A stretch of DNA of 37,516 nt from contig CANGGT010000015.1 of NCBI GenBank assembly GCA_947453375.1, positions 1-37,516 of the forward strand. The letters run 5' to 3'. A program made the translations under genes and the position numbers. Positions 8,023 through 12,451 of this stretch are shown here, in pieces (position 1 is the first letter of the stretch; each line of letters starts with the position of its first letter). Source of the stretch: Planctomycetaceae bacterium. Lineage in GTDB: Bacteria; Planctomycetota; Planctomycetia; Pirellulales; UBA1268. The notes beneath the pieces are model-generated. The model was not told the DNA's origin. It made no database searches and was given only the letters and a program-made list of their open reading frames with translations.

Positions 8023-8042
8023 CACCGCGCGGCGCCGTGTCA
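8020..8042. terminator. Palindrome spanning both convergent stop codons
   Basis: A 23-base near-perfect palindrome with arms TGACAC/GTGTCA and an inner GCGC/GCGC, broken only by one C-C pair and the central base. It begins with the TGA of nfo and ends with the reverse complement of the TGA of the permease. It would form a hairpin in either transcript. No T-run follows on either strand, so termination activity is inferred from position and symmetry. Confidence 0.45.
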
Positions 8043-9338
8043 CCGCGTCGGCTCGTCGGCCGCGCGCCGGGGAAACTCCTCGGGGGGAATGTCTCGACCG
8101 TGCGGGTCGCCTTCGTCCCCTTCGAGATCGGCGGCGATCCGCCCGCGAACCTCTGCCCCGAGATGGTGTTCGATCCATTCCGCCGGTGGGTGGAGGTGAT
8201 CCAGCGGCAGGGCGACATGGCGCCCCAGCCACGCCTCCCAGAGGCGATGGGAGCGGACGATCACCCGCGCTTCCTCGCGACCGATGTCCGTGAGCCCCCC
8301 GGCACGGCCCGGGACGATCCTCCCCCCGAAGACAAGCCGGGCCTGCGCCAACCGATCGAGGAGCGTCCGGGGGGCGAGGGCCGCGGCGTCCCCCTCTTCC
8401 GCGCGCCACAAGCTCGCGAGCCGGTCTTCACAGGCCACGCGCCAGCGGAGTGACTCCCGGCTCACCACCCGCGCCACGACCCCGTCCCCCGGCGCCAACA
8501 GCGCTGCCAGGAGATACTCAATCCCGAGGACGACGGCGATCATCCCGGCGGCGTTGGTGTTGAAGTGCCAGGCGGCGAGATACCCGACGATGCTCCCGGC
8601 GATGCCGAGGGCCACCGCGACGACGAGCATGAGGTGGAAGCGGCGGACGAGCAGCTCGGCCGCGGCCGCTGGCACGGCGAGCATCGCCACGACGAGGATC
8701 GCGCCGACCGCCTCGAAGCTCGCCACCGTCGCCAGACTCGTGGCAACGAGGAGGCCGGCGGAGACGATCCCGACCGGGAGCCCCGCGGCGCGGGCCGCCG
8801 CCGGATCGAAGGCGGTGAAGACGAGTTCCTTCCAGCAGAGGGCCGCCGCGACGACGAGGACGGCTAGGACGGTCGCCGCCGCCAGGAGCGCCCGCGGCAC
8901 CTCGAGCCCGAAGATCGGCACCGTGTCGAAGGGGACGAGCTCGAGGATCCCGTAGAGGACGCACCCCGGATCGATGTCGACCTGCGATGCCAGGGCCGAG
9001 ACGAGCACCACGCCGATCGCGAACAGGGTCGTGAAGGCGACGCCTGCGCCGGCATCCTCGGCGAGCCCGGCATGGGTGCCGAGGAGGTTCGTGAGCCACA
9101 CCGTGACCAGCGCCGCGACAACGGCCCCGAGAAACACTCCCGCCCCGCCCGGACGGCCTCCGGCGAGCACGGCCAGGACGATGCCGGGGAGCACCGCATG
9201 GCTGATCGCGTCGCCGAGCAGGCTCAACCGCCGGACGACGAGGAACGAACCGACCAGCGCGCAGGCCGCCGACACGGTGGCGGCCGTGGCGATCGCCCAG
9301 AAGTGCATCCAGACGTGGGTGGTGTCGATCTCGATCAT
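8040..9338 (-). CDS. Metal ABC transporter permease fused to a DtxR/MntR-like sensor domain
   Basis: A 432-aa fusion. Residues 10-285 are an ABC-3 (ZnuB/MntB/TroC-type) permease with 8-9 helices and the RRLSLLGDAISHAVLPG signature (36-52). Residues 295-425 are cytoplasmic and resemble DtxR/MntR repressors: a winged-helix-like part (about 305-352, ending GGLTDIGREEA) and the dimerisation/metal domain with SHRLWE (H364), AEWIEHHL (E387, E390, H391) and DPHGRDIP. These match MntR ligands H77, E99, E102 and H103, so the metal site looks intact. The helix-turn-helix is poorly conserved and may not bind DNA. The likely role is import of Mn or Fe with internal feedback. It is the last gene of the operon, 13 bases after the second permease. 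Confidence 0.88.
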   Translation of the reverse strand: MIEIDTTHVWMHFWAIATAATVSAACALVGSFLVVRRLSLLGDAISHAVLPGIVLAVLAGGRPGGAGVFLGAVVAALVTVWLTNLLGTHAGLAEDAGAGVAFTTLFAIGVVLVSALASQVDIDPGCVLYGILELVPFDTVPIFGLEVPRALLAAATVLAVLVVAAALCWKELVFTAFDPAAARAAGLPVGIVSAGLLVATSLATVASFEAVGAILVVAMLAVPAAAAELLVRRFHLMLVVAVALGIAGSIVGYLAAWHFNTNAAGMIAVVLGIEYLLAALLAPGDGVVARVVSRESLRWRVACEDRLASLWRAEEGDAAALAPRTLLDRLAQARLVFGGRIVPGRAGGLTDIGREEARVIVRSHRLWEAWLGRHVALPLDHLHPPAEWIEHHLGAEVRGRIAADLEGDEGDPHGRDIPPEEFPRRAADEPTR

Positions 9339-9351
9339 CGGCCTGCCTCGT

Positions 9352-10653
9352 TCACGACATGCCCCCTGAGACCGGGCCTGAGGCGCTGCGGGCCGCCGCT
9401 GCCGATTCGCGGATCGCCTTCATCCGCGCCGCGCCCAGGATCGCCTCCGGCGAGGGGACATCGATCGTGAGATGCCCGCGGGCATCCTCCCGCGCGGCCT
9501 CGAGCACCTCCGTCCAGGCCGCCAGCCGCCGCGACCGCTCGGCTGCCAGTTCCCGCCCCCACACCGCAAGGCGCCAGGCATGGGTGCCGGCGCGCGTCAC
9601 CACCGGCTCGATCGCCGCCGTGCGGGCGAGCCGCTTGAAAGCTCTCTCGGCCGCAACGCCCGGCGCCTTGGCGAGGAGCTGCTCCCGGGTGAAGGGCCCT
9701 TCCCCCTCGAGGCGGAGGGCCACCTCGAGGAGCCGTCCCTCGGCCCACGCTGCCACCGTTCGCCGGGACCGCAGCCAGCGGGCAAGCCCGCCGCGCCGCG
9801 GGGCGAGAAGGAGCGAGATCGCAAGCAGGAGGGAGGCGGCGATCACGACCAGCGGCCCGGTCGGCATCCGTGGCACGGCGCTGCTGACGGCCACGCCGGA
9901 GAGCGCCGCGACGAGGCCGAACAGGCCGGCCAGCGGGAGCATCACCCCGACGCGGTCGGTCCATTGCCGCGCCGTCACCGGTGGGATCACGACCAGCGCC
10001 GTGACGAGCACCGCCCCGGCCGCCGGCAAGCCGACGACGACCATCACCGCCACGAGAACCACCAGCGCGTAATCGATGAGCGTCACCGGCCAACCGCTGG
10101 CCGCGGCGAACAACGGATCGAAGGCCACGAGGGTCGATTCCTTGAGGAACAGCGTCACGAGGGCGACGGCGAGGAGCGACAGGGCACCGAGGATCATGGC
10201 GTCGGCGGCCGTCAGTCCGGCCGTGTGGCCGAGGAGGAATTGCTCGAGCCCGGCACTTCCGGGGATCCCGCGGGCGGAGATCCCCGAGAGGAGCGTGATT
10301 CCGGCGCCGAACGACACCCCGAGGACGATCGCCGTGGCGGCATCCTCGCGCGTCCGTGTCCAGCGGCCGATGAGCACCAGGCCCGCAAGCGCCGCGATCG
10401 CCGTCGACAGCGCCCCGCCGAGGAGGAGCGGCAAGTCGCGCCGCCCGCCGCCGAGGAGGAAGGCAAGACCGACTCCGAGAAGCGTCGCGTGGGCCGCCGC
10501 GTCGCCGGCCAGCGCGCGGCGTCGGAGGACGGCGAAACAACCGACCACGCCGGCGGCGAATCCGACCGACGCCACCCCGGCGGCGACGACGAGGGTGTTG
10601 TAGGGGGGGATCCAGCCGGTGGGGAACGGGAGATCGGCAGCGGCGAGGATCAC
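9352..10653 (-). CDS. Metal ABC transporter permease with cytoplasmic winged-helix-like extension
   Basis: A 433-aa ABC-3-type permease. Residues 18-285 hold 8-9 helices with [20 protein letters not shown] (44-63), equivalent to the cytoplasmic-loop motif of the MntB/ZnuB family, and [20 protein letters not shown] (209-228), the typical late-helix motif. Residues 290-433 are a charged, helical cytoplasmic tail whose first part ([20 protein letters not shown], then [11 protein letters not shown]) looks like a winged helix; the metal ligands seen in the partner permease are absent. The GTG start overlaps the ATPase stop (GTGA), so translation is coupled. A much longer open frame upstream is the shadow of the ATPase. 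It probably forms a heterodimeric channel with the next gene product. Confidence 0.87.
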
Positions 10654-11429
10654 GACGTCCGCCCCCCTTCGGCGACGGCCCGCCCGATCTCGTCGAGGAC
10701 ATCGAGCCGGCCGGCGTACGTCCTCCGGAGATTCTCCGGCGTCAGCACCTCGGCCACCGGCCCGGTGGCGACGAGGCGCATGTCGATGAGGGCAACCGCG
10801 TCGAACCACTCGGCGACGCTGCGGAGATCGTGGTGGACGATGACGACCAGCCGCCCCTCGGCGCGGAGGTCGGAGAGGACCCGGAAGATCCGCTCCTGTG
10901 ACCGGGCATCGACCCCCGCCATCGGTTCGTCGAGAAAATAGACATCGGCCTGTTGGGCGAGCGCTCTGGCCAGGAAGACGCGCTGCTGCTGCCCCCCCGA
11001 CAGCCGGCCGATCTGCCGCTCGGCCACGTCGGCGAGGCCGACGCGATCGAGGCATTCAGCCGCCAGTGCCCGCTCGCGCGGGCCGGGCCGCCGCAGCCAA
11101 CCGAGCCGGGCGTAGGTCCCCATGAGGACGACGTCGGTGACACTCACCGGGAAGTCCCAGTCGACCGATTCCCGCTGAGGCACGTAGCCGACCCGGGCTC
11201 GCACCTGTTCGAGCGGGGCGCCGAGGATCCGCACTTCGCCGCCAGCCAGGGGCACAAGTCCCAGCGCCGCTTTGAGGAGCGTGCTCTTCCCGGCGCCGTT
11301 GGGGCCGACGATCCCGAACAGGCAAGCCCCAGGCACAGTGAGGTCGACATTCCAAAGCACGGGCCTGCGGCCATAGGCCACCGTGACGTCATGGAACTCG
11401 AGGCCGGCGGAGGTGGTCGACATCGTCAT
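10650..11429 (-). CDS. Metal ABC transporter ATP-binding protein
   Basis: A 259-aa ATPase of the Mn/Zn/Fe type (MntB/ZnuC/TroB group). It shows Walker [10 protein letters not shown] (42-50), a Q-loop in [20 protein letters not shown] (a tract characteristic of metal-type ABC-ATPases), signature LSGGQQQR, Walker [13 protein letters not shown] and the H-loop VIVHHDL. It powers uptake with the two permeases encoded immediately downstream. The ATG pair at 11429 and 11423 lies just after the binding-protein stop (11443); the frame is open further upstream into that gene but with no family similarity. No clear Shine-Dalgarno is seen, so translation may depend on reinitiation from the upstream gene. 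Confidence 0.92.
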
Positions 11430-11442
11430 TCCGATCGCACGC

Positions 11443-12402
11443 TCATTTCGATCCCGACGGGGCAGGCTGAGGCTTGGCGAGAGCTGCCACCATGGTCGCC
11501 ACATTCGCCCGCAGGGCTTCTTCGAGTGTCCCCGCCCCGCTCCCTGGCTTGTCGAGAGAGTCGGAATAGAGGCGCCCGCCGAGCCCGACGGTGTGCCCCC
11601 GGGCCCGGGCCCCCTCGCGAAGGGCCGTGACGTTGCGATCGGAGACGCTCGTCTCCACGAACACTGCCGGAAGCCGCCGCGTGACGACGAGCTCGACGAG
11701 CCGATTGATGTCGCCGAGGCCGGCCTCCGCCTCGGTACTCGTCCCCTGGATGCCGACGACTTCGATCCCGTAGGCCCGACCGAAATAGCGGAAGGCGTCG
11801 TGGGCCGTCACCATCACCCGACGCTCCAACGGGATTTCGGCAAGCGTCTCACGGATCTCATCGTCGAGGGCGAGGAGTTTCTCGGCGTAAACCCGCCCCG
11901 ACTCGCGGTAGGCCTCGGCGTGGGGTGGATCGAGCTTCGCCAATCGCTCCGCGACGGCCGGCACCCCACGGCTCCAAAGCGCCGCATCGAACCAAACGTG
12001 CGGATCGTGCATCCCGGCTCCCGCATCGAGGAGGCGGTCGGCGGGAAGCGAGTCCCCCACGGCGATCACCGGCACGCGGCGCGAGAGGCGTTCGAGGAGA
12101 TCGGCGAGTTTCCCCTCGAGATGGAGACCCGAGGCGACGACGAGATCGGCTCGGGCGAGCCGGTCGGCATCGCGCGGGGTGGCCTTGTAGCTGTGCGGAT
12201 CGATCCCCGGAGCCATCAGGCAGTCGAGACCGACCCGATCGCCGGCGATCTGCCGGACGAGATCAGCCACCACCGTCGTTGTTGCCACGACTTGGAGGCG
12301 ACGATCGGCGGCGTTGCAGCGGCCGTCCCCCAGCGGGAGAACGAGCGTGAGGAGCCCGAACACGAGCGTCACGACGTTCGAGAACCGCGACGGAATGCTC
12401 AT
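11443..12402 (-). CDS. Metal-binding protein of ABC transporter (TroA/MntA type)
   Basis: A 319-aa periplasmic cluster A-I solute-binding protein. A hydrophobic signal (about residues 8-30) is followed by [15 protein letters not shown] (38-52), typical of the family. Predicted ligands are H70 ([10 protein letters not shown]), H135 (MHDPHVWF), H201 ([10 protein letters not shown]) and D281 (YSDSLDKPG), the three-His-one-Asp set of Treponema TroA. There is no His-rich loop like that of ZnuA. This favours Mn or Fe (possibly Zn) over a dedicated Zn scavenger. The start is supported by GAGAG eight bases upstream; the earlier in-frame ATG would include the promoter. It is the first gene of the operon and probably lipid- or signal-anchored; no lipobox is clear. 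Confidence 0.92.
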
Positions 12403-12410
12403 TTTTGATC

Positions 12411-12432
12411 TCTCAAAAAACAATCTTTGAGA
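12411..12432. promoter_or_regulatory. Candidate operator upstream of the metal-uptake operon
   Basis: Perfect inverted repeat TCTCAAA ... TTTGAGA with an 8-base spacer, in a markedly AT-rich island of an otherwise GC-rich region. It lies between the predicted -10 and the ATG of the binding-protein gene and covers the ribosome-binding site. That is where a metal-dependent repressor (MntR, DtxR, Fur or Zur family) would block transcription. The bases do not match a published consensus that I can recall, so the regulator is unknown. Confidence 0.5.
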
Positions 12433-12451
12433 ACCCAAAATCTCTTTCAGC

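Follow-up and report, generated by a model that had tools for sequence, protein, structure and literature searches.

The window, i.e. the whole stretch of 37,516 nucleotides of planctomycete DNA that was analysed, carries an operon for a putative divalent-metal ABC importer. The genes lie in the order substrate-binding protein, ABC ATPase, permease A and permease B, so that permease B, which would be one of the two transmembrane subunits, is the last gene. The features at the locus are as follows, with the evidence in brackets where it is of several kinds.

8040..9338, minus strand: permease B with a C-terminal DtxR-type metal domain, 432 aa, stop included
8499..9302, minus strand: ABC-3 transmembrane domain, permease B residues 13-280 (Pfam, PsaC fold match, conservation)
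8394..8480, minus strand: predicted cytoplasmic tether helix, permease B residues 287-315, equivalent to DtxR alpha1 and carrying D305 (AlphaFold2 models, alignment)
8295..8390, minus strand: helix-turn-helix (HTH) remnant, permease B residues 317-348, i.e. a helix (326-337) and a wing-like strand without alpha2
8085..8291, minus strand: metal-binding and dimerisation domain, permease B residues 350-418 (PF02742, structure match, conservation)
9352..10653, minus strand: ABC-3 permease A, the second transmembrane subunit, start approximate (Pfam 1.4e-50)
9355..9798, minus strand: DtxR-like C-terminal extension of permease A, decayed and without the metal ligands (hhalign, ligand loss, dN/dS)
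10650..11504, minus strand: ABC ATPase of the metal importer, start approximate (Pfam, NCBIfam)
11443..12402, minus strand: ZnuA/TroA-type metal substrate-binding protein, whose ATG overlaps the operator (Pfam 1.8e-74)
12402..12441, no strand: candidate operator TTTTTGA-N4-TCAAAAA (12402-12419) with a degenerate second copy 22 bp upstream

The opposite-strand reading frames inside the permease B gene are mechanical ORFs of GC-rich DNA and were set aside as unsupported.

The membrane part of permease B matches the ABC-3 family (PF00950, residues 13-280, E 3.9e-45), and in the model it matches the PsaC structure 7kyp with E 3.5e-13 and a TM-score of 0.84 by target length. The Asp-His-Asp transport triad is complete (D43, H47 and D95). 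D43 and H47, the first two residues of the triad described for MntC (PMC8487065), are present in 46/46 permease-B proteins collected across the phylum, and D95 in 33/46. The transmembrane fold and the Asp-His pair of the transport site are thus shared with the importers PsaBC and MntBC (TroCD, SitCD type). PsaC and MntC, however, have no sensor domain, MntC ending in a short essential C-terminal helix, and the importer of permease B has two different permeases. The best NCBIfam matches are AztB/AztC (zinc) and MntA/MntC (manganese), all of them under their own cut-offs.

The extension of permease A matches the A-domains of other planctomycetes (hhalign probability 92.9, E 3.6e-7) and has no significant direct match to the separate DtxRs (hhalign probability 0.5). 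Its metal ligands are lost in 8/8 sequences, with a dN/dS of 0.25. The idea that it is an intact second sensor was rejected on the ligand loss and the missing match. Other genera of the family lack the extension, while in other planctomycete families the metal ligands are kept, and across planctomycetes it forms a graded series of domain loss. With the partner domain decayed in this genus and missing elsewhere in the family, a heterodimeric sensor is not conserved here.

The metal-binding domain and the reduced DNA-binding half

By its sequence permease B is an ABC-3 permease fused to the metal-binding and dimerisation domain of DtxR/MntR. Fe_dep_repr_C (PF02742) covers residues 350-418 with E 2e-15 and 57 bits against a cut-off of 27, and a PDB sequence search with the C-terminal 149 residues gave strong matches to DtxR-family repressors only, the best being the Mn repressor 8pvt (E 2.8e-11). 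The earlier note, made from the letters alone, had read this tail as a DtxR/MntR-like metal sensor, and the domain and PDB matches agree with it. So does the predicted fold: the AlphaFold2 model of the isolated C-terminal domain (pLDDT 78, pTM 0.72) matches DtxR, IdeR, DR2539 and others in a structure search, and superposes on DtxR 1p92 over 136 residues (Z 15.9, rmsd 2.5 A). In the full-length model (pLDDT 87) a PsaC-like membrane domain is combined with a DtxR-like tail; both models are monomers with fewer than 50 sequences in the alignment under each. The last transmembrane helix (263-281) is followed by a short turn and by helix 287-315, which is equivalent to DtxR alpha1. Helix 326-337 and a wing-like strand then lead on to the long helix 351-374, which belongs to the dimerisation domain. 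From the number of helices after the coupling region, we infer that the C-terminal domain is cytoplasmic.

The metal ligands are kept with great strictness. H364, E387, E390 and H391 align with MntR H77, E99, E102 and H103 as the earlier note had them, and all four are invariant in 34/34 non-redundant close orthologues and in 29/29 domains of the family. The two outcomes named in the earlier note as counting against it, a fold unlike DtxR/MntR and a lack of conservation of these four residues, were thus both looked for, and neither was found. Three more ligand positions are invariant in the same 29/29 domains: D305 (MntR D8, DtxR M10), E368 (DtxR E83) and H383 (DtxR H98). The positions shared with MntR and DtxR are therefore H77/H79, E83, H98, E99/C102, E102/E105, H103/H106 and D8/M10. 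Regulators of the Mn or Mn/Fe type typically have Glu or Asp where DtxR has C102. At the position of MntR E11, 29/29 family domains have Ala, and permease B therefore lacks the equivalent of the binuclear A/C site of MntR. Across the phylum, H364, E368, H383, E390 and H391 are each present in 46/46 permease-B proteins, D305 in 41/46 and E387 in 34/46. The metal domain has additional conserved histidines, i.e. H374, H381 and H413.

The DNA-binding half presents a very different picture. The Pfam HTH of DtxR (PF01325) is found in 0/46 of the fused permease-B proteins, all 46 of which have PF02742, whereas the separate DtxRs of the same phylum have both domains in 17/17; among the permease-A domains PF01325 is found in 1/25. 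The distance between the D8 and H77 positions has a median of 59 residues in the family against 69.5 in the separate DtxRs and 69 in MntR and DtxR. The HTH span is hence ~10 residues short, and the hhalign gap falls over alpha2, in keeping with the single helix (326-337) in the model where DtxR has two. A winged-helix-like segment had been noted after the last transmembrane helix: it is present, but as a remnant with one helix of the two. The impression that the DNA-recognition part is poor now has numbers behind it, and it speaks for direct control of transport. When HTH identity is divided by metal-domain identity, the fused classes give 0.28-0.40 and the separate DtxRs 0.79, with the caveat that the underlying alignment is not certain over the HTH. 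Comparisons within the genus gave a dN/dS of 0.017 in the metal domain, 0.083 in the transmembrane domain and 0.135 in the HTH remnant. Judged by these values, the sensor is kept under stricter selection than the transporter itself, whereas the part that reads DNA is not preserved. The truncated HTH of permease B probably no longer binds DNA, though the fused domain may do so by an unconventional surface. Compared with DtxR and MntR, which share the fold of the C-terminal domain as IdeR and DR2539 do, permease B differs in being fused to a transporter, in having neither HTH alpha2 nor an SH3/FeoA domain, and in having Ala for MntR E11.

The candidate operator and the separate DtxR

The palindrome TTTTTGA-N4-TCAAAAA overlaps the start codon of the gene for the substrate-binding protein, and several relatives have a second copy 22 bp upstream as well. 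At up to one mismatch it occurs a single time in the 4.5 Mb genome, and its chance expectation in the window at up to two mismatches is 0.00. We found it in 65/72 genomes of the family, mostly once or twice per genome. The genome of the window encodes one separate complete DtxR with HTH, metal domain and FeoA domain (contig C42, recognition helix SPGTVTSM), besides one Fur-family protein, and in almost every genome of the family a single separate DtxR accompanies a single fused domain. The gene of this DtxR (L001, contig C42, 1234-2145, minus strand) is not near the importer; by eye, it is flanked by a pterin-synthase-like gene and a methenyl-H4MPT cyclohydrolase-like gene.

The palindrome follows the separate regulator. 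Outside the family, counted at up to two mismatches with a gap of 0-4, it is present at 8/8 operons with an adjacent separate DtxR that has a (P/A)GTAT recognition helix; where the adjacent DtxR has another helix at this place, the count is 1/15. One of the eight GTAT-type operons (L160) has permeases without the fused domain. Within the family, no separate DtxR was found in genome G043 and only a different, MntR-type one in G050, and neither operon has the palindrome at up to three mismatches, although the metal ligands of the fused domains (L057, L058) are intact in both. These two genomes are related, so the loss of the palindrome probably counts as one event. Genomes G045, G053 and G060 keep the separate DtxR and have degenerate palindromes at the expected position; G034, which is 51% complete and has neither separate DtxR nor palindrome, was left out of the count. 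The sequence evidence suggests that transcription of the operon is probably controlled by the separate DtxR at the candidate operator 12402-12441.

In about eleven genomes of the family a further palindrome stands directly before a gene with a prepilin-type N-terminus (L193-L198, L200, L202, L203, L206, L207). Three of these genes were scanned, and 3/3 encode DUF1559 proteins, which suggests a metal-regulated DUF1559 surface or pilin-like protein. Because the palindrome also precedes these genes, the regulator acts in trans. Fused operons without an adjacent separate DtxR (L124, L129, L156, L147, L148) have other palindromes upstream, which are perfect in L124, L147 and L148 (AATGTAGCCTAGGCTACATT; TTTATTACCCTAGGGTAATAAA).

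Possible roles of the fused domain

Our preferred reading, to which we assign a probability of about 0.6, is that the fused domain is a cytoplasmic metal sensor without DNA binding that regulates its own transporter in a transinhibition-like manner. The kept ligands and the reduced HTH suggest an importer that senses internal metal and adjusts itself directly rather than via its gene. With ample Mn(II) or Fe(II) in the cytoplasm, the metal would be held by D305 of the tether helix on one side and by the ligands of the dimerisation core on the other. The hinge would then close and, as the last transmembrane helix passes directly into the tether helix, shift the C-terminus of the permease relative to the ATPase, so that import is slowed. 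The tether helix would be the natural transmission element between sensor and permease. In MntC of B. anthracis, deletion of the cytoplasmic C-terminal helix leaves the protein still made but transport completely lost (PMC8487065). The position of that helix is taken here by the sensor alpha1 with D305, and hence metal would pin the helix to the dimerisation core. The transcription of the operon would be left to the separate complete DtxR binding the candidate operator.

There are precedents for such an arrangement in MetNI and ModBC, where added C-terminal ligand-binding domains impose transinhibition (PMC10710835). These are also importers with an added C-terminal ligand-binding domain of a dimerising kind, cytoplasmic there and predicted to be so here. 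The fold is unrelated, however, inhibition has been shown there and would be predicted here, and as a counterpoint to the analogy it is the ATPase that carries the regulatory domain in MetNI and ModBC, and the permease here.

The nearest known system is YtgCR of Chlamydia trachomatis (CT069/CTL0325), in which YtgR is cleaved from the permease YtgC and autoregulates the operon (PMC6504234, PMC5599777). By analogy, the C-terminal domain of permease B could be released by proteolysis, or stay tethered, and repress its own operon in a metal-dependent manner. Set against permease B by its published description, YtgCR has the same domain order, an ABC-3-type permease with a C-terminal DtxR-like domain and conserved metal ligands, and the same type of operon (substrate-binding protein, ATPase, permease, permease). 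But YtgR keeps a functional HTH, is cleaved and represses, while here the HTH is truncated by the deletion of alpha2 and a separate DtxR is the probable repressor. The palindrome tracks the separate DtxRs, is present at an operon free of fusions, and also stands in trans before the DUF1559 genes. We therefore consider a YtgCR-like role very unlikely, and permease B, which would work differently if our preferred reading holds, does not belong among the YtgR-type repressors, since the DNA-binding domain that defines them is not recognizable in it. The alternative in the earlier note, a membrane-bound regulator of its own operon, fares no better: it is the separate DtxR that the operator suits, and the lost HTH together with the operator data led us to reject autoregulation by the fused domain.

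Three further explanations leave DNA aside. The domain might be structural, a constitutively bound ion holding together the C-termini of the permeases or the permease-ATPase interface without any sensing. This would accord with the metal domain being the most constrained part of permease B and with the loss of transport in the truncated MntC (PMC8487065). On the other hand, the ligands are those found in reversible Mn/Fe sensors, and the domain is lacking in ordinary members of this permease family (e.g. L159 and L160), so we regard a purely structural role as unlikely. It is less likely still that the domain is an acceptor or buffer that takes ions leaving the channel and passes them on, as its predicted place by the channel exit and the extra conserved histidines could be taken to mean; no conserved transfer motif was seen in it, and DtxR-type sites are, to our knowledge, regulatory in every characterised case. 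Finally, the fused domain could form mixed dimers with the separate DtxR at the membrane, or compete with it for metal. The dimerisation helices are retained, and the two proteins occur one to one in almost every genome of the family, but G043 has lost the separate DtxR while its fused domain persists with the ligands intact, which makes such cross-talk highly improbable in our estimate. Direct regulation of the transporter by a non-DNA-binding sensor remains our preferred account.

Accounts of how bacterial ABC importers adjust their uptake of Mn and Fe by feedback usually deal with transcription. If our preferred account is true, a DtxR sensor without DNA binding inside a permease would be a direct brake at the protein level, and would show clearly how a transcription factor can become a regulator of a transporter. 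It would also be a warning that not every permease-DtxR fusion is to be annotated as a YtgR-like repressor.

Distribution of the fusion in Planctomycetota

A search across planctomycete genomes, which had been proposed together with the fusion itself, found the architecture conserved and widespread in the phylum. Most genomes of the family have a strong match to permease B, and among the matches listed there are full-length or contig-truncated copies in all 12 genera except that of G032. Fusions are present in many further families of Planctomycetota, and many lineages have a DtxR-like domain on each of the two tandem permeases. L159 and L160 represent ordinary permeases of the same protein family without it. 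The genomes are mostly metagenome-assembled, so that absences carry some risk.

The statement that MntR and DtxR are normally separate repressors is incomplete, as permease-repressor fusions such as the chlamydial YtgCR have been known since 2011-2012 (PMC5599777, PMC6504234) and orthologues of the YtgCR type have been reported in 11 phyla (PMC5599777). The architecture is therefore not new, and the difference here lies in the DNA-binding half. Our literature search found no description of permease-DtxR fusions from planctomycetes. We speculate, at slightly less than even odds, that in Planctomycetota a metal ABC permease took over a DtxR, which then shed the helix that reads DNA and now serves as a direct allosteric brake on the importer. 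Control would then act at two levels, by the separate DtxR at the gene and by the fused domain at the protein, with a sensor dimer where both permeases carry the domain.

Two other arrangements were seen. Single-permease operons (L141-L146) encode a longer DtxR-type tail of ~220 aa, with a weak FeoA match in one of the two scanned. In L135-L139, L150 and L151 the order is reversed, with the metal domain on permease A and only a wHTH stub on permease B, hinting at a sensor/reader pair split across the two permeases.
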